Assembly (NCBI GenBank): GCA_016213895.1
Contig: JACQZJ010000126.1
Span: 1 to 58,340 of the forward strand
Reading direction: 5' to 3'
Source: Planctomycetota bacterium
Lineage (GTDB): Bacteria > Planctomycetota > B15-G4 > JADJEK01
DNA length: 58,340 nt
The notes beneath the pieces were generated by a model that was not told the DNA's origin, made no database searches, and saw only the letters and a list, made by a program, of their open reading frames with translations. Of this stretch, positions 48,347 to 57,521 are shown piece by piece. Made by a program: the position numbers and the translations under genes. Position 1 is the first letter of the stretch, and every line of letters begins with the position of its first letter.

Positions 48347-48516
48347 GGGGGGCTCCTCCTGTAGTCGGCTAGTCGGCGCGGCACGCGCCGCTTGCTTGTC
48401 CACGACCTTCCGGCCGCATTCTACCACAGGGCGCCCCCTGCCGAGGCGGCAAGCGACGGCGCCCGCCGCGCGAGCGTGTGGTATCGTGGCGCGCGGACGC
48501 CGGACGGAAACGGCTC

Positions 48517-49647
48517 ATGATCGGTCTTCTCGCCAGCATCGCGGTTCTCTTCCTCTCCCAGGACCCCGCTCCCCGGGAGACCTGCTCCGCGTGCGCCGAT
48601 CGCGGCAGCCTCCCTTGCCCGGCGCACAAGAAGCAGGACCTCGAGCTGGAGAAGAACGTTCTCTTCTGCTCCGAGGTGATCAAGTGCCGGACCTGCGGCG
48701 GGGTCCTGGAGATCGATTGCGACGAATGCGCGATCGGCGACAAGCAGATCGCCTACGCGCGGGAAGAGAAGGAGCGCTGGCTCGAGAAGCAGCAGCAGAA
48801 CTACGAGCTGCTGCAGCACGAGTTCCCCATCGGCCGCTCGCCCCACTTCGAGCTGTGGTGGGACGGCGACACGATCGTCGCCGAGAAGAGGCGACTCTCG
48901 GACCACGCGGCCATGCACCTCTACGTCGACCGCCTGGAGGATCTCTACCAGCAGTTCAAGGCGGCCACGGGCGCCACGGACGAGGACTTCAGCACCGTCT
49001 TCCAAGTGATGGTCTGGAAGCGCTACAAGCACCACCAGATCGCCGCCGGGCGCTTCACCGGGCAGCCCAACCCGGACACCGGCACCAAGCGCATGGGCGC
49101 GGTCGGCATCTACACCGTCTTCCTCGACCCGAGCACGGTCGACCCGGACGAGAGCGCCGCCGCCGACCTCTACCGCGCCATCGTGCACAACGTCTCCCAC
49201 CTGCTGCTCGCCAACGCGTGGAACGGCCTCTGGCCGGGCGAGCTGCAAGGGGGCTGGGTCGACACCGGCGTGGCCCACTACTTCGAGGACAAGCTGCACG
49301 GCCGGTGCACCAACTTCTGCTACCGCGAGCAGGACACCATCTCCAACTTCCGCGGCGCGCGCTGGCGGGCGCCGGCGCGCACGCTGGCCGCGGCCAATGA
49401 CCGCCCCTCCTTCGCCGAGACCATCCGCAAGAAGAGCGACGAGCTCTCCTACGACGAGCACATCCTCTCCTGGTCCTACTGCGAGTTCCTGATCTCGCGG
49501 AATCCCGCCGGCTTCGGCGCCATCTGTCGCGCCATCAAGCAGAGCAAGAGCATCCGCGAACCCATGCTCCAGCACTTCGAGTTCGACGTCTTGAACTTCG
49601 AAGAGGCGTGGCAGGCGCACGTCAAGGCGACGTATCGCGGGCGCTGA
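48517..49647 (+). CDS. Exported CxxC plus gluzincin-like protein with a degenerate active site
   Basis: 376 residues with a signal peptide (IGLLASIAVLFLSQDP). The N-terminal part has zinc-ribbon-like cysteines CSAC (23-26), CPAH (34-37), CRTC (57-60) and CDEC (68-71). The C-terminal part has the peptidase-MA fold outline but the HExxH site reads HNVSH (224-228) and the third-ligand segment reads GGWVDTGVAHYFED (Thr250 instead of Glu). Both glutamates needed for catalysis and zinc binding are lost, so it is probably a non-catalytic binding protein. The phrase 'HxVSH' is shared with the relative at 51407-52627. It is divergent from the FG-GAP gene and convergent to the Phd-like gene. Confidence 0.75.
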   Translation: MIGLLASIAVLFLSQDPAPRETCSACADRGSLPCPAHKKQDLELEKNVLFCSEVIKCRTCGGVLEIDCDECAIGDKQIAYAREEKERWLEKQQQNYELLQHEFPIGRSPHFELWWDGDTIVAEKRRLSDHAAMHLYVDRLEDLYQQFKAATGATDEDFSTVFQVMVWKRYKHHQIAAGRFTGQPNPDTGTKRMGAVGIYTVFLDPSTVDPDESAAADLYRAIVHNVSHLLLANAWNGLWPGELQGGWVDTGVAHYFEDKLHGRCTNFCYREQDTISNFRGARWRAPARTLAAANDRPSFAETIRKKSDELSYDEHILSWSYCEFLISRNPAGFGAICRAIKQSKSIREPMLQHFEFDVLNFEEAWQAHVKATYRGR

Positions 49648-51406: not shown

Positions 51407-52627
51407 TCAGCCCTTGCCCTTCCTGCTGCGCGTCATCGGCCCTTGCCACGGCTTGAGCGTGTATTCCTCGCGCACGTACTCCCGCCAGCCCTCGACGAAC
51501 TGGCCCACGGTCAGGCCGTAGGCCTGCTGCAGGCAGTCGCGGTCCGCAGGCTGCGGGCCGGTCATCAGCTGCAGCATGGGCAGCATCTTCTTGGGGTCGA
51601 GCCAAAGCAGGTAGTCGATGTAGGACCAGGCGAACTGGTGGTCCATCGCGCTGAGCGATCCCACGTCCTTGCCGAGGATGTCCTGGAAGGCCGGTTCCTC
51701 CCCGGCCGCGACTGCGCGCTTGACGTTCGCCTCCCAGTTGCGGCTCTGCCAGTGCGCGAACTCGCCCGCCTCGGCCGTGCACCAGGTGACCGGCGAGCCG
51801 AAGTTCTTGACCTCCATGTAGTGGGCCAGCCCCTCGTACACCCAACCGTAGCGCTGGAAGAGCCAGTGCTGGCGGCCCGCCACCGCGTCGTGGACGTGGT
51901 GAGAGACGGCGTGCGTCAGGAACTGGTGGCGTTCCTCGTCGCAGGTGATGACCGACGGGTCGTCCCAGGAGACGAGATGCGACTCGATGCCGAGCAGCGA
52001 GACCTTGGTGCCCGCGGAGAGCGGCCGGTTGGCGAAGCGCGGCGCGGCGAGCTGCGCCGTCTTCTGGCTCTCGAAGAGGTAGAGGTGGTGCTTGACGCCG
52101 TTCGTGTCCGCGTCCGTCATGCCGTGCAGGTCGAGGATCTGGCGGTGCAGCTCCTCCATGCGCCGCGCGTAGAGGTGCATCCCCTCGTGCCGCGAGAGAA
52201 CGCGCTTGCCGAACGCGATCTTCGGGATGTCGAAGGCGATGACGAAGTGCGCCGTCTCGACGTGGTCGACCTTCTTCATGACCGCCTCGTCGACGGTCTT
52301 GCGGCGCTCCTCGAGCCACGCCCGGCGCGGCGCGAGCGCAGCGGCGAACTCGCTCTCCGCCGCCGCCTTGAGCGAGGGCGTGCGGCACTTCGCGCATGGG
52401 ACCCAGTCGAGACCGAGCGCCTCCGGGTCGCTCTCCAAGAACACCGAGCAGAAGATGGCGCCCTCCTCGAGGGCCAGCTCGGCGGCGGCGTGCTCGTGCT
52501 TGAGCCTGCCGGTGCCCTGGCAGTCGCCGCAGAGCGGCTCGCCCTGCTGCCCTGCGGCCGCGCCGGGCGCGCACAGGACCGCGCCGAGGAGAGAGAGACC
52601 CGCGCTCGCCCGCGGCCGCCGCAGCAT
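51407..52627 (-). CDS. Exported CxxC plus gluzincin-like pseudo-peptidase ending the metal/SPFH operon
   Basis: 406 residues with a signal peptide (LSLLGAVLCAPGAAAG). The N-terminal ribbon has CGDC-x-GTG (33-40), Cys60 and CAKC (78-81). The C-terminal domain resembles peptidase-MA proteins, but the HExxH site reads HAVSH (239-243), so the general-base glutamate is Ala240, while both histidines and the third-ligand Glu265 (GWVYEGLAHYMEV) remain. Zinc binding without catalysis is therefore possible. Its ATG shares one base with the hflK stop (TGATG), so it is translated with the HflK/HflC operon. It resembles the 48517-49647 protein (376 residues). Its task next to SPFH proteins is unknown. Confidence 0.78.
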   Translation of the reverse strand: MLRRPRASAGLSLLGAVLCAPGAAAGQQGEPLCGDCQGTGRLKHEHAAAELALEEGAIFCSVFLESDPEALGLDWVPCAKCRTPSLKAAAESEFAAALAPRRAWLEERRKTVDEAVMKKVDHVETAHFVIAFDIPKIAFGKRVLSRHEGMHLYARRMEELHRQILDLHGMTDADTNGVKHHLYLFESQKTAQLAAPRFANRPLSAGTKVSLLGIESHLVSWDDPSVITCDEERHQFLTHAVSHHVHDAVAGRQHWLFQRYGWVYEGLAHYMEVKNFGSPVTWCTAEAGEFAHWQSRNWEANVKRAVAAGEEPAFQDILGKDVGSLSAMDHQFAWSYIDYLLWLDPKKMLPMLQLMTGPQPADRDCLQQAYGLTVGQFVEGWREYVREEYTLKPWQGPMTRSRKGKG

Positions 52628-53631
52628 CAGCGCCTCCCCTCCTCCCCGCCATCTTCCTGCCCCGCCGGCTCCTTCTTCTTCTCGCCGGCCTCGAGGTAGA
52701 CCGCCACCCTCTCGCCGCCCGCGGCAGGCTGCACCACGATCGTCCGCCCGCGCGCCAGGATGCGCTCCACCGCGTCGAGCCAGAGGCGCCGCCTGGCCAG
52801 CCCCGGGTCCTTCTTGACCTCCTCCGCGAGCTTGATGAAGCTCGCGGCCGCGCCCTGCGCCCTGTTCAGCAGCTCGCTGCCGTAGGCCCGCGCGCCTTGC
52901 TCGAGGGTGTTCACGGTCGCGCGCGCCCGCGGCTTGATGCGCAGGGCGTAGCCCTGGGCCTCCTCGGTCTGCCGCGCCTTGTCTTGCTTGGCGGTGGAGA
53001 CGTCGTTGAACGCGCCGATGACGTCCTGTGGAGGACCGACCTCGACCACGTTGATCGCGTTGACGCGCAGGCCGGTGGCGAGCGCGTCCAGCTCATCCTG
53101 CAGCGGGCCGATCGTCTCGAGCGAGAGGCTCGCCTTGCCGGTGGTGAGGACGTCGTCGATCGCCATGGTGGCGATCAGCCCGGAGAGCACCGCCTCGCTC
53201 ACGCGGCGCACCACGTAGTCGCGGCTCGCGCCGTCCGCGGAGTCGCTCATGCCGAACAAGTACTCCACGGGATCGCGTACCGTGTAGTACACGGTCGCCT
53301 GCAGCTCGACGATGTTGGTGTCGCCCGAGAGCCACTGCACCTCGACGTCCGCCGGCGGGATGTTGCGCACCTTGTCCTGCATCTTGAAGCCGACCGGCAT
53401 GGGCCGCACCTGGGTGATGGACACGCGCTCCATGGTCTCGAGCGGCCAGGGGAGCGTGAAGTTGATCCCGGCCTGCGCCACGCGCGACACGCGCCCGCAC
53501 GTCAGCACCACGCCCTGTTCGTCCTGCTGCACCACCCAGGTCGACGAGTAGATGCCCGCCGCCAAAACGGCCAAGAGCAGCGCGCCGCCGCCCGCCGCGA
53601 TCGCCGTCCGCTGTCCGCGCCGCGCCATCAT
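52627..53631 (-). CDS. hflK: SPFH domain protein, HflK-like
   Basis: 334 residues. One N-terminal helix (QRTAIAAGGGALLLAVLAAG) precedes an SPFH/band-7 domain: VVQQDEQGVVLTCGRVSRVA, GINFTLPWPLETMERVSITQ, VEVQWLSGDTNIVELQATVY. A charged helical region follows (DVSTAKQDKARQTEEAQGYA). The MERVSITQVRPMPVGFK segment is the HflK form, and the C-terminus has KELRLWLDA-like residues LARRRLWLDAVERILARGRT. HflK and HflC normally form a large periplasmic cage that controls the FtsH protease; no ftsH is in the window. The first ATG of an ATGATG pair overlaps the hflC stop. Confidence 0.88.
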   Translation of the reverse strand: MMARRGQRTAIAAGGGALLLAVLAAGIYSSTWVVQQDEQGVVLTCGRVSRVAQAGINFTLPWPLETMERVSITQVRPMPVGFKMQDKVRNIPPADVEVQWLSGDTNIVELQATVYYTVRDPVEYLFGMSDSADGASRDYVVRRVSEAVLSGLIATMAIDDVLTTGKASLSLETIGPLQDELDALATGLRVNAINVVEVGPPQDVIGAFNDVSTAKQDKARQTEEAQGYALRIKPRARATVNTLEQGARAYGSELLNRAQGAAASFIKLAEEVKKDPGLARRRLWLDAVERILARGRTIVVQPAAGGERVAVYLEAGEKKKEPAGQEDGGEEGRR

Positions 53632-54533
53632 TCCTGCCCGGCCGTGGCGGGAGCCTCCGCCCGCGTCTCCTGCAGCACCCTGAGCAGCTCGTGGTCGCTC
53701 GGCAGGATCACGGTGGAGCCCTCGTCCAGGATCTTCTCCAGGGTCTGCAGGGAGCGCAGGAACCGGTAGAGGTCCGGATCGCGCGAGTAGGCCTCGGTGT
53801 AGATGCGCGTCGCCTCGGCCTCGGCCTCGCCGCGCAGCTCCTGGGCGCGCCGCTCCGCGGCGGAGACCATCTCCACCTCTTCGCGGTCGGCGTCCGCCTT
53901 GATCCTCTCGTACTGCTCCGTTCCCTCCGAGCGGATCCCCTGGGCGATGCTCTCGCGCTCCTGCTCCATGCGCCGGAAGACCGCCTGCTTGTTCTGCAGG
54001 GGGTAGTTGAGGCGCTTGATGCGCACCGCCGCCACCTTGATGCCGTAGCTCGCCCGCGCCTCCGCGGCCGCCGCCGCGGTGATGCGCTCCTCCACGTCCC
54101 GCAGCGTGGTCTCGTGCGATTCGTTCGAGACCAGGGCGGCGAACGGCTCGGCGCTGAGGACGTCGCCGACCACCGAGCGCAGCACGTCCGTGAGGCGCGA
54201 CTCGGCGACCATGCGGCTGCCGACGCTCTTCAGGAACTTGAGGGGATCCTCCACCGACCAGGCGAGGAAGCTGTCGACCATCACGTTCTTCTTGTCGCCG
54301 GTCAGGTACTCGTCCGGCTGCGGATCGAGCACGTGCATGCGGCCGTCGATGCGGATCACGACGTCGACGGGCGGCGGCCACTTGCAGCGCAGGCCGGCCT
54401 CGCTGATCGTGCGCCGCGGGTCGCCGAAACGCGCGACGATCACGTGCTCGTTCTCGTTGACCTGGAAGAGGCACGCCCAGCAGGCCAGCCAGAGCAGGCC
54501 GGCGAGCGCCAGCAGTCTGAAGGCAGTCTTCAT
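53628..54533 (-). CDS. hflC: SPFH domain protein, HflC-like
   Basis: 301 residues. An N-terminal helix (AFRLLALAGLLWLACWACLF) is followed by an SPFH domain: VNENEHVIVARFGDPRRTIS, GLRCKWPPPVDVVIRIDGRM, DSFLAWSVEDPLKFLKSVGS. Then comes the HflC-type coiled region with RIKRLNYPLQNKQAVFRRME, ERESIAQGIRSEGTEQYERI and the end RSLQTLEKILDEGSTVILP. It pairs with HflK in a membrane-anchored cage. Gene order here is hflC before hflK, the reverse of E. coli. It starts 37 bp after the permease-SPFH gene, overlaps hflK (ATGA) and has no ftsH or hflX nearby. Confidence 0.88.
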   Translation of the reverse strand: MKTAFRLLALAGLLWLACWACLFQVNENEHVIVARFGDPRRTISEAGLRCKWPPPVDVVIRIDGRMHVLDPQPDEYLTGDKKNVMVDSFLAWSVEDPLKFLKSVGSRMVAESRLTDVLRSVVGDVLSAEPFAALVSNESHETTLRDVEERITAAAAAEARASYGIKVAAVRIKRLNYPLQNKQAVFRRMEQERESIAQGIRSEGTEQYERIKADADREEVEMVSAAERRAQELRGEAEAEATRIYTEAYSRDPDLYRFLRSLQTLEKILDEGSTVILPSDHELLRVLQETRAEAPATAGQE

Positions 54534-54570
54534 CGCAGTGCCACCCGTCGCGTCGGTCGGATTCGCCGGT

Positions 54571-56712
54571 TCATTCCGGCTCCAGCTTCACCGGCGGGAC
54601 CACGGCCGGGCCGCTCTCGCCGGCGTCATAGAGGCGCACCTCAATGCCGTCGTCGAGGAGCAGAACCAGCCGGCAGCCGCCGAGGACCTGCTCCGCGGCC
54701 TCGTGCCGCAGCCTGAGCAGAGTAATGTCGCGCCCGCCGCCGTGTAGCGCCTCGAGCAGCGCCAGGAACGCGGCGACCTCGCCCGAGGCGGCGTTGACCG
54801 AGCGGTCGCGCGCGGCCTCCGCCTCCTGTTCGATGCGGTACGCCGTCCCCCGCGCGCGGGCCGTTTTCTCGCGCTGATAGCCCTCGGCCGCGCGGATCTG
54901 GCGCTGCTTGTCCTCGAACGCGCTCGCCACGTCGCGGTAGGCATAGTGCGTCTGCGGCGGCGCGTGCAGGCAGATGAGCTTGAGCGCCACCACCTTCATG
55001 CCTGCCTGCGCGCCGTCCAGCTCCTGCTGCAGGATGGCCGCCGCGGCCGCCTGCAGCTCGTCCCGATCGGCCACCAGGACCTCGTCGGAATGGCGTCGCG
55101 CCAGCACGCGCCGCAGGGAGGTCTCGGTCAGGGAGCGCAGCAGGGTCTCCGGATCCTCCACGCCGTAGCGCCAGCGATAGGCGTCGGCCACCATGTACTG
55201 CACGGCATAGAAGACGCGCACGATCTTCTCGTCCCCGGTGACGACCTCCGCCTCCGCCTCCAGGTCGCGCCCGTCCGCGCGCGCGAAGGCGCCCTCACGG
55301 AAGCGCGCCTGGCCCTCCGCCTCCGAGCTGAAGCCGAACTCCACGCCGCGCACCAGCGTGTCCCTCACGATGTCGACGCGATCTATGGGAAAGGGCAGGT
55401 GGAAACGTATGCCAGGCTCGCGGAAGGTGTCCGCCACGGCGCCGAAGCGGATCAAGAACCCGGTCTCGCCCGGCCCCACCACCGAGAACGCGGTCGCCAG
55501 GTAGGCGATCAACACGGCCGCCGCGGCGGCTGTCTTGCACAGCGGAGACGTTGGGTCGAAGCCCACGCGCGCGCACCACCCGCGCAGCCAGCGGCCGAAG
55601 CGCGCAGCCGCGTGCTGCGCGAGGGCGTGGTAGAAGAGCAGGAGCCCAAGCGCGGCGCCGCAGACCACGCGCGCGGCGGCCATGAAGGACGACTCCTCGC
55701 CGTTCACGAGGGACATCAGCGGCTCGATGTCGAAGGCCGAGTAGATCCCGTTCACCACGCCGCCGAGAGCGAGCGAGACGACCGCGATGGTCCCCAAGTA
55801 GACGAGGAGGACGCGGCGACCGAGCAGGTTCTTGACCACGAAGAACGTGGCCACGTTCGTGGCCGGCCCGGCAAGCAGCAAGACCAGCGCCGCGCCCGGA
55901 TCCAGCCCCTTGGCCACCAGGGCGGCGGCCACGGGCGTGCTGGCCGTGGCGCAGATGTACATGGGGATGCCGACCACGAGCATCACCAGCATGGAGAGCC
56001 ACGTCCAGCCCGCGGGCAGCACACCGGCGAGGAAGTCGTCCGGCACGCAGACCATAATCAGGCCGGACAGGACGAAGCCGATGATGAACCACGGGGTGAG
56101 GTCGGCCATGAGCGTGCCGAAGGAGTAACCGAACACCGCCCTCATGGCTTCGAGGAAGCGCCCGCCGCGCGCGCGCGAAACGTCCTTCCGGACGCCGGCC
56201 GCGGGCGCCTCGGCCGCGGCTGCCGCGCCGCAGGCGCAGCAGGGAGCGCCCGCGCCGCTCGGAGCCGCCTCCCCGGCGCCACGGTCATCCCAGCCGCGTC
56301 GCACCATCAGGTTGACGAGAGAGCCGGCGCCAAGCGCCGTGAGCAGGGCCGCGATGGGACGCGCGAAGGTCATGAGCGGGTCCATGACCGCCCAGGTCAT
56401 GCCGATGGAGTCCACGCCGGTCTCGGGCGTGGAGATCAGGAACGACGTCGTCGCCCCCTTGCTTGCGCCGCTCCTCCTGAGGGCCGTGGCCGTCGGGATC
56501 ACGGAGCAGGAGCACAGCGGGATGGGCACGCCCGCGCACGAGGAAACGAAGACGGAACGGAAGTCGTCCCGCCCCAAGTGGCGGACGACCTTGTCCGCGG
56601 GAACGAAGACCTTGATGAGCCCGGCGAGCGTGAAGCCGATGAACAGGAACGGTCCTGATTCCCTCAGGATCATCCACATGGCCGCCAGCCACTCGCTCAG
56701 GAAGCCGATCAT
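54571..56712 (-). CDS. Fusion of an SO_0444/ArsP-type metal permease with an SPFH (HflK-like) domain
   Basis: 713 residues. Residues 1-365 are a DUF318-type permease with the duplicated motif: CSCSVIPTATALRRSGASKG (Cys67, Cys69) with STPETGVDS in the first half, and ASTPVAAALVAKGLDPGAAL with AGPATNVATF in the second. A metal-binding-like cluster CCAC (158-161) lies in the cytosolic loop. A further helix (AAAAAVLIAYLATAFSVVGP, about 395-412) leads into an SPFH domain (about 412-690): GETGFLIRFGAVADTFREPG, RFHLPFPIDRVDIVRDTLVR, ending in a coiled region (VASAFEDKQRQIRAAEGYQR). The family of the first part includes Cu/Zn and organoarsenical efflux proteins. The frame is unbroken, so the fusion is not a frameshift artefact. 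Its ATG overlaps the ZIP gene stop. Confidence 0.85.
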   Translation of the reverse strand: MIGFLSEWLAAMWMILRESGPFLFIGFTLAGLIKVFVPADKVVRHLGRDDFRSVFVSSCAGVPIPLCSCSVIPTATALRRSGASKGATTSFLISTPETGVDSIGMTWAVMDPLMTFARPIAALLTALGAGSLVNLMVRRGWDDRGAGEAAPSGAGAPCCACGAAAAAEAPAAGVRKDVSRARGGRFLEAMRAVFGYSFGTLMADLTPWFIIGFVLSGLIMVCVPDDFLAGVLPAGWTWLSMLVMLVVGIPMYICATASTPVAAALVAKGLDPGAALVLLLAGPATNVATFFVVKNLLGRRVLLVYLGTIAVVSLALGGVVNGIYSAFDIEPLMSLVNGEESSFMAAARVVCGAALGLLLFYHALAQHAAARFGRWLRGWCARVGFDPTSPLCKTAAAAAVLIAYLATAFSVVGPGETGFLIRFGAVADTFREPGIRFHLPFPIDRVDIVRDTLVRGVEFGFSSEAEGQARFREGAFARADGRDLEAEAEVVTGDEKIVRVFYAVQYMVADAYRWRYGVEDPETLLRSLTETSLRRVLARRHSDEVLVADRDELQAAAAAILQQELDGAQAGMKVVALKLICLHAPPQTHYAYRDVASAFEDKQRQIRAAEGYQREKTARARGTAYRIEQEAEAARDRSVNAASGEVAAFLALLEALHGGGRDITLLRLRHEAAEQVLGGCRLVLLLDDGIEVRLYDAGESGPAVVPPVKLEPE

Positions 56713-57449
56713 GCGCCCAGCCTGTGAAAGAGCACCATGGCCCCGATGCCCAGCGCCATCAGCGTGATCTTGGCCACGCTGTCCTCGCGGTGGTGGAAGA
56801 CCTCGGGCAAGAGCTCGCAGAGGCAGACGTAGAGGAACGTCCCAGCCGCGAGCGCGGTCGCGATGGCGATGCCCTCCTGGGTGAGCTGCGCCGTGAGCAG
56901 GCCCCCGACCAGGATGCCGGTCGGCGTGATGAGCGAGAACAGGACCATGAGCACGACGATGCGCCGCCGGCGGAACTCCGCCAGCAGGAAGACCGAGGCC
57001 AGGGAGAAGGCCTCGAAGCCCTTGTGCGAGACCAGCGAGACGAAGACCGGCATCGCCAGCTCTGCATTCAGCGCGGCCGCCGAGTAGCCGATCCCGGCGG
57101 TGAAGCAGTGGATCGACAGGCCGGCGAGCGCCGCGTACCCCACCGCCGTGTGACGGTGCACGTCATCGCCCTCGTGCGTGCTGAAGAAGAGCGTCTCGAT
57201 CAGGTAGACCGCCAAGACTCCCGTCAGCACGAACCCCCAGATGAGCACGTTCCCGTGGGCGTGCGCGGCGCCATGCTCCGCCGCCTCGACCGCCGAGAGC
57301 GACGGCAGGAGGTGCAGGAACACCGCGCCGAGAAAGACCCCAGTGGAGAGGGCCAGCACCGAGTGCAAGTGCCGGTCCGACCAGTGCACCAGGAGCGGCA
57401 GCAATCCTCCGGCGAGGGCCACCAACAGAATGACGATGGACTCGACCAT
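56709..57449 (-). CDS. ZIP family metal transporter
   Basis: 246 residues with eight hydrophobic segments. The metal-site helices are visible: SIHCFTAGIGYSAAALNAEL (helix 4, His), SLVSHKGFEAFSLASVFLLA (helix 5, HKGFEA with His, Glu), and AGTFLYVCLCELLPEVFHHR (helix 7/8). The first loop has AAEHGAAHAHGN, a small histidine-rich stretch, and another loop has STHEGDDVHRHTAVG. ZIP proteins bring divalent cations, mostly Zn2+ or Fe2+, into the cytosol. As first gene of the operon (ATGA overlap with the permease-SPFH fusion) it sets the theme of the cluster as metal handling. Confidence 0.92.
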   Translation of the reverse strand: MVESIVILLVALAGGLLPLLVHWSDRHLHSVLALSTGVFLGAVFLHLLPSLSAVEAAEHGAAHAHGNVLIWGFVLTGVLAVYLIETLFFSTHEGDDVHRHTAVGYAALAGLSIHCFTAGIGYSAAALNAELAMPVFVSLVSHKGFEAFSLASVFLLAEFRRRRIVVLMVLFSLITPTGILVGGLLTAQLTQEGIAIATALAAGTFLYVCLCELLPEVFHHREDSVAKITLMALGIGAMVLFHRLGA

Positions 57450-57490
57450 GGACCGTCTCGCGGCTCCGCCCGGCGGGAAACGGAACCGGG

Positions 57491-57521
57491 ATCGTAGAAC
57501 CTAGTCCAAGCGCTCGGTCAA
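57491..57521 (-). promoter_or_regulatory. Promoter with MerR-type geometry before the ZIP operon
   Basis: On the minus strand TTGACC (57521-57516) and TACGAT (57496-57491) are separated by 19 bp, longer than the usual 17. The spacer contains the dyad ACCGAG-N8-CTAGGT (57518-57499), a 5-of-6 inverted repeat starting in the -35. A stretched spacer with a dyad between the hexamers is how MerR-family metal sensors such as CueR and ZntR act. No MerR-family gene is in this window. Confidence 0.5.

Follow-up and report, generated by a model that had tools for sequence, protein, structure and literature searches.

A conserved planctomycete locus that joins an SO_0444-family exporter to an HflK-type SPFH protein beside dedicated HflC and HflK genes

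Introduction

In the HflK/HflC cage, alternating subunits, 24 in number, make up a periplasmic dome. The HflK/C cage encloses FtsH (PMC12048511), and stomatin domes enclose AQP1 and UT-B in erythrocytes (PMC12407830). Knowledge of these cargoes came from hard biochemistry, and which proteins SPFH domes hold, and how a transporter is affected by being held there, are open questions. The exporters of the SO_0444 family are poorly studied. Shewanella SO_0444 is needed for growth under zinc or copper stress (PMC3219624), and one or more genes of the family are induced by cadmium and copper in Nitratiruptor (PMC10092412). Here we describe a locus from a Planctomycetota bacterium in which a permease of this family and an HflK-type SPFH protein are encoded as a single 713-amino-acid protein, followed by genes for HflC and HflK. 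The window, that is, the whole stretch of DNA that was analysed, comprises 58,340 nucleotides of contig JACQZJ010000126.1 (C91 in our numbering) of a 5.5 Mb assembly in 218 contigs (GCA_016213895.1).

Results

The fusion was identified by profile searches that matched a permease and an SPFH domain within one reading frame. The permease half scored 367.7 bits against NF033936, the SO_0444 profile, which is above the equivalog cut-off of 300; eight other fusions scored between 320 and 401 bits and every fused protein scanned exceeded the cut-off. The Pfam families ArsP_1 (PF03773, 151 bits) and Band_7 (PF01145, 61 bits) were found within the same chain. The SPFH half reached 159.6 bits against the hflK profile TIGR01933 (cut-off 159.4), and the corresponding part of its relatives reached 159.4 bits in one locus (L125) and 95-158.5 bits in the others scanned. 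Since these scores lie about at the cut-off or below it, the fused part is best labelled an HflK-type paralogue and not an HflK orthologue. It aligns with residues 82-349 of E. coli HflK (7vhp, E 1.2e-28) through the transmembrane (TM) helix, the SPFH1/2 domains, the coiled coil and the C-terminal region, and a Foldseek search with the AlphaFold2 (AF2) model of the fusion retrieved HflK (7vhq_E, 4.9e-14; 9cz2 also matched). The alignment and the structural matches indicate that the full cage-forming architecture of HflK is present. An earlier note on this DNA, prepared from the sequence alone, had assigned the permease an SPFH domain of its own; the domain is indeed there, and it is of the HflK type and full-length.

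The distribution of the fusion was determined in a sample of 392 genomes spread over the home phylum, of which 88 had an SO_0444 permease above the cut-off. The surroundings of most permease sites were annotated with profiles built from the window proteins, for a total of 81 loci. The fusion was found in 14 of the 392 genomes (14 of the 81 loci), belonging to eight families. The fusion is also present in 2 of the 345 genomes examined from a second phylum, to which a Desulfobacterales genome belongs, and both loci keep the order of HflC and HflK. HflC and then HflK lie immediately downstream in all 16 fused loci, in frames that usually overlap or nearly touch. At the 67 unfused SO_0444 loci of the home phylum, 19 of which have less than 3 kb of sequence on one side, no SPFH gene was detected within 6 kb of available sequence, and the linkage differs sharply between these and the 14 fused loci (Fisher p 5e-16). 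Searches of 289 genomes from the Verrucomicrobia-type phylum of locus L092, 193 from the Omnitrophota phylum of locus L045 and about 400 Pseudomonadota genomes gave no fusion, and no record in the plasmid collection spans both the permease and the SPFH halves. The samples for the phyla of genomes G395 and G398 consist of identical Pseudomonadota genomes and count as one phylum. Two candidate exceptions were discarded. HflK had seemed to be missing at L247, where a 312-amino-acid open reading frame (ORF) that overlaps the HflC stop proved to be HflK. A 713-amino-acid frame in genome G632, of the phylum of L092, is not a fusion, as its permease is C-terminal in a 661-amino-acid ORF with no SPFH domain after it. 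The fusion cluster of genome G970 (L247:37-3168) is convergent to what appears by eye to be an RND-type efflux gene, possibly forming an efflux island.

A sister genome of the same genus carries the fusion on an independent contig (DYIW01000218.1, from a mine metagenome bin labelled Phycisphaera mikurensis, Planctomycetota), with 86% identity over residues 1-713. The earlier note had set beforehand, as grounds for dismissal, that the fusion or its neighbourhood should turn up in this assembly alone or that reads should fail to support the joint; instead, the arrangement was found in 16 genomes of two phyla, and the joint is the same in the sister genome and in 14 further genomes. Literature searches found no published description of an SPFH-permease fusion or of an HflKC metal-efflux operon, in agreement with the note, whose author knew of no described system of this composition. 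The locus is a real, conserved operon that is apparently undescribed.

The separate HflC and HflK of the window are above the cut-offs of their profiles (TIGR01932, 181 bits, cut-off 134; TIGR01933, 179.7 bits). The genome also has a canonical HflK/HflC pair on another contig (C119; G000:C119:51478-53445, locus L187), and because of this the SPFH set of the cluster is a dedicated paralogous set. In a tree of 60 SPFH sequences, the cluster HflC forms a clade (support 98/96) apart from canonical HflC. Cluster HflK, fused HflK-like proteins and canonical HflK are also separate, although cluster HflK taken as one group is weakly supported; the support for the fused clade was 80/52 in this tree and 96/87 in a separate tree built for the home phylum. 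The same small groups recur across three gene trees, which points to inheritance as a block. Transfer of the block between lineages appears likely as well, since fused loci from the same order (L101 and L110) lie far from the window in all three trees. The canonical pair has a run of N inside HflK and is adjoined by a B12-radical-SAM-like ORF.

The transport-site cysteines of the permease are retained. All 97 permeases compared, 16 fused and 81 unfused, have C67, C69 and C254, and the loop between the permease halves contains on average 10 Cys plus His and 14 Asp plus Glu residues per sequence in 12 fusions. In some members of the family one cysteine of the CxC motif is replaced by selenocysteine, giving UxC (PMC13188914), a form that fits CxC as a direct metal ligand. 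Judging from the invariant cysteines and from the stress and induction data on SO_0444 relatives, the fused exporters look functional; copper/zinc export is a prediction for them and is known for Shewanella SO_0444 only. Three other permease forms were seen. Many SO_0444 permeases of the second phylum (G1004:C38, G1103:C9, G931:C4 and others) contain one in-frame TGA, matching the selenocysteine form. The window genome has a second ArsP_1 permease (G000:C109:1754-2947, L189) that scored 241 bits, well under the SO_0444 cut-off. At L109:8890-10458, a 522-amino-acid ORF combines an SO_0444 permease with two C-terminal domains that by eye resemble HMA (CxxC) domains.

The gene upstream of the fusion encodes a ZIP-family protein (PF02535, 117 bits, cut-off 35.1). 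A ZIP gene immediately precedes the fusion in 10 of the 12 home-phylum fused loci that no contig end truncates, and it is the adjacent upstream gene in 13 unfused loci. In six more unfused loci (L103-L108, from six genomes of one family, f32), ZIP and the SO_0444-type permease are one polypeptide. These pairings and one-chain forms at unfused loci indicate that the partnership of ZIP and permease extends beyond the SPFH fusion and is probably physical; the ZIP-like protein would be an older partner of this permease subfamily. The single ORFs, such as L103:7954-9897 and L104:8456-10447 and those of L105-L108, place importer-like and exporter-like domains in one chain. Another group of permeases (L112:8404-10254, L114:8305-10083, L116 and L117) matches ArsP_1, falls under the SO_0444 cut-off and has an N-terminal membrane domain of about 230 amino acids with LHAFFDG/LHRLPVG-like motifs that recall ZIP, and Pfam Zip gave no match.

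The metal-site motifs of the window ZIP are altered (HCFTAG, HKGFE, TPTG). The structures of BbZIP were matched by a profile; a search with the single sequence gave no ZIP structure. Of the binuclear site of BbZIP, which also contains M99, the residues H177, N178, E181, Q207, D208, E211 and E240 were compared (PMC9873690). In all ten fusion-locus ZIPs H177 and E211 are kept and Q207 is a His, and N178, E181 (A, T, N or S), D208 (K) and E240 (T) are replaced, so that the binuclear site is largely lost. Plain metal uptake, the role given to this protein in the earlier note, is therefore doubtful on the residues, and it is also implausible because the neighbour is an exporter. We favour a reading of the protein as a subunit for metal binding or relay.

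The AF2 model of the fusion (predicted local distance difference test score, pLDDT, 72; predicted template modelling score, pTM, 0.46) has about 10 membrane helices. The loop before the last helix averages 5.2 Lys plus Arg and 1.4 Asp plus Glu in 12 fusions, and the N-terminus, like several of the remaining loops, is acidic. With a basic loop before the SPFH helix, the positive-inside rule predicts that the SPFH half is periplasmic, as it is in E. coli HflK; loop L5-6 is mildly against this placement. The C-terminus of BbZIP is outside. If the ZIP-like proteins end outside in the same way, the predicted topology fits the short joints between ZIP and permease.

The coordinates of the locus are collected in Table 1. 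Five ORFs run head to tail on the minus strand, in the succession that the earlier note had described, and the family assignments of ZIP, permease, HflC and HflK were borne out by profile hidden Markov model matches above the cut-offs. The overlaps are of 4 bp (ZIP/fusion), 4 bp (HflC/HflK) and 1 bp (HflK/pseudo-peptidase), and the single gap, 37 bp, separates the fusion from HflC. The common promoter that the note assumed was not recovered: a scan of the locus for a sigma-70-type site gave none (0.1 expected), in what is a weak test for a GC-rich planctomycete.

Table 1. Coordinates of the fusion locus and of the parts of its proteins (positions in the window; residue numbers are those of the protein concerned)
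Feature	Position	Strand	Evidence
ZIP-family membrane protein, 246 amino acids	56709..57449	-	PF02535 117 bits; BbZIP alignment; residue table
Fusion, 713 amino acids: SO_0444-family Cu/Zn exporter (predicted) and HflK-type SPFH	54571..56712	-	NF033936, PF01145 and TIGR01933 in one frame
Permease half, residues 1-365	55618..56712	-	NF033936 match to residues 12-360; AF2 model
CxC metal motif of the permease, C67-S68-C69	56506..56514	-	invariant in 16 fused and 81 unfused
C254, third invariant cysteine, second half-repeat	55951..55953	-	invariant in 97/97 sequences
Cys/His-rich acidic loop between permease halves, residues 137-199 (CCACG here)	56116..56304	-	composition
Basic linker preceding the final TM helix, residues 365-390, predicted to be cytoplasmic	55543..55620	-	charge counts, 12 fusions
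HflK-type SPFH half, residues 391-713: TM helix, SPFH1/2, coiled coil, C-terminal strand region	54571..55542	-	E. coli HflK alignment; Foldseek
HflC, 301 amino acids, clade apart from canonical HflC	53628..54533	-	TIGR01932 181 bits; tree
HflK, 334 amino acids, clade apart from canonical HflK	52627..53631	-	TIGR01933 179.7 bits; trees
Pseudo-peptidase, 406 amino acids: Cys-rich N-terminus and collagenase-like gluzincin fold, no catalytic Glu	51407..52627	-	HxxxH; AF2; Foldseek

The product of the last gene is secreted-looking and has a weak match to DUF1570, under the Pfam cut-off. It fits its earlier description as an exported CxxC protein with a gluzincin-like fold that seems able to bind zinc but not to cut: H239-AVS-H243 and E272 are present, the N-terminal cysteines are conserved, and the catalytic Glu of HExxH is absent, as it is at this site in the aligned paralogues. 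The AF2 model (pLDDT 85) matched a collagenase peptidase domain in Foldseek (8.7e-4). The protein belongs to a multi-copy family and its linkage to the fusion locus is seen only in this genus. A system of five genes was rejected, since paralogues of the pseudo-peptidase are on other contigs of the genome and the linkage is limited to the genus; of the co-occurrence proposed in the note, the fusion/HflC/HflK part held at all 16 loci, ZIP mostly accompanies it, and the pseudo-peptidase was left out. A diverged paralogue lies within the window (48478-49647, plus strand), and a tandem pair is found at G000:C182:44774-47284; these paralogues make up a small family in the lineage and lack the catalytic Glu at the second HxxxH.

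Discussion

The constant presence of its own HflC and HflK beside the fusion suggests a dedicated cage built around a metal pump. The best explanation, which we hold to be reasonably probable, is that the genes specify a dedicated HflK/C-type dome to which a copper/zinc exporter is covalently joined. The locus would be a paralogue of the HflK/HflC cage in which one of the two HflK-type subunits is a single chain with an SO_0444 exporter. The fused HflK-like part, the cluster HflC and the cluster HflK would co-assemble into a dome of alternating subunits on the periplasmic face of the inner membrane, and some HflK-type positions would carry the exporter at the N-terminus, a place taken in E. 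coli HflK by nothing more than a cytosolic tail. As built-in cargo, the exporter would lie in the dome or at its rim, and the cage would set its copy number, its lipid surroundings and its access to the periplasm. The ZIP-like protein would join the exporter as a metal-binding or relay subunit and not as a free importer. Candidate contributions of the cage are protected delivery of metal to the periplasm, a particular lipid environment, and protection from FtsH or exposure to it. A more specific version is tentative, and we give it less than an even chance: copper or zinc may be released into a chamber in the periplasm that SPFH proteins seal off, which would make the assembly a "transporter-carrying membrane encapsulin" and a third kind of HflK/C-like dome, with the ZIP-like protein as a relay.

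Several findings weigh against the dome with an attached exporter. The permease halves of the fusions do not form one clade (approximately unbiased test, p-AU 1e-4), and those of L101 and L110 are nearest to L140, which is unfused and comes from the same order; this implies that the permease half was swapped or that fusion to a common SPFH module happened more than once. The ZIP gene is missing from four fused loci (L101, L110, L246 and L247) and is therefore not essential to the design. The AF2 model, of moderate quality, leaves the orientation of the permease relative to the SPFH half unfixed. In addition, the residues of E. coli HflK that contact FtsH (R141, E142 and R185) are partly kept in the cluster proteins, which leaves room for an FtsH-linked role. 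These residues vary even among canonical HflK proteins, so they are not diagnostic, and they were dropped as a discriminator.

FtsH is the best known partner of HflK/C (PMC12048511, PMC13220708), and the fused HflK part could serve to bring the exporter to it. Regulated degradation, for instance following metal stress, would then set the exporter level, and the cage would act in turnover and not in transport. The contact residue R185, present in 14 of the 16 HflK proteins of the clusters and in 8 of the 16 fusions, agrees with such a coupling. However, no FtsH gene was recognised near any locus whose neighbours were examined, a separate canonical HflK/HflC pair is available for FtsH in the genome, and a degradation tag would have no need of its own HflC and HflK, all of which make quality control by FtsH unlikely. 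Slightly less likely, in our opinion, is that the fused SPFH part is a mere scaffold by which exporters are gathered in a patch of membrane without a closed dome, with HflC and HflK as conventional partners in the patch. SPFH proteins are widely described as microdomain scaffolds, and the model of the fusion has no defined packing between permease and SPFH half, but none of the length that HflK uses to form a dome is missing from the fused part, which includes the coiled coil and the C-terminal region, and the strict grouping of fusion, HflC and HflK resembles the alternation of HflK and HflC in the ring.

The substrate could also be different. On this reading the term metal would come from the family annotation only, and the permease might export another soft metal or a thiol-reactive compound instead of copper or zinc, as its match to SaoE (142 bits, below the cut-off of 325), its membership in the broad ArsP_1 family and the distance to the nearest tested member, the Shewanella protein, would allow. 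The scores of all scanned fused proteins, which exceed the SO_0444 cut-off, the invariant CxC...C, the Cys/His-rich loop, the ZIP-family gene that is mostly alongside and the response of SO_0444-family genes to copper and cadmium in Nitratiruptor (PMC10092412) argue for copper/zinc, and we rate a different substrate as improbable, on a level with the scaffold. An assembly or binning artefact, or a chance cluster, had to be considered because the carriers are mostly metagenome-assembled. This explanation was rejected and its probability is negligible, since the same joint and gene order recur, with sequence divergence, on independent contigs of 16 genomes in two phyla.

If the encapsulin version is correct, gene fusion would fix the cargo of an SPFH assembly for the first time. 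With cargo and cage in one chain and dedicated partners adjoining, the genome itself names the cargo, and the proposal can be tested by expression and pull-down. The locus also shows HflK and HflC duplicated into a purpose other than that of the canonical genomic pair, and it ties the SO_0444 exporters to ZIP proteins as a likely physical unit.

Each component has a described counterpart from which it departs. The permease half resembles the SO_0444 family (NF033936) in its score above the equivalog cut-off and in the invariant CxC and third Cys; SO_0444 and most relatives are free-standing permeases of 350-400 amino acids, whereas the window protein has an HflK-like part at its C-terminus. 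With BbZIP (PDB 5tsa, 7z6m), the fusion-locus ZIPs share homology over TM4-TM8, the TM4 His, a TM5 His (Gln in BbZIP) and the TM5 Glu, and they differ by the replacement of N178, E181, D208 and E240. The pseudo-peptidase has the gluzincin-type fold, HxxxH and downstream Glu of the DUF1570/Peptidase_MA-like gluzincins and of the collagenase peptidase domain, but it lacks the catalytic Glu of HExxH, has a Cys-rich N-terminus and stays below the Pfam cut-off. The E. coli HflK/HflC cage (PDB 7wi3, 7vhp/7vhq, 9cz2) is comparable in that HflK-type and HflC-type genes occur together and in the alignment over HflK 82-349. The window has three SPFH genes (fusion-HflC-HflK) instead of two, their products are in clades separate from canonical HflK/C, and the exporter takes the place of the HflK N-terminal tail. 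Stomatin domes (PMC12407830; PDB 9zd2) offer the likeness of an SPFH dome with a membrane transporter as cargo, the dome being deduced here from the genes. Their cargo is a separate protein held non-covalently by a single stomatin, whereas here the cage subunit would carry its cargo within the same chain and have HflC and HflK as partners.

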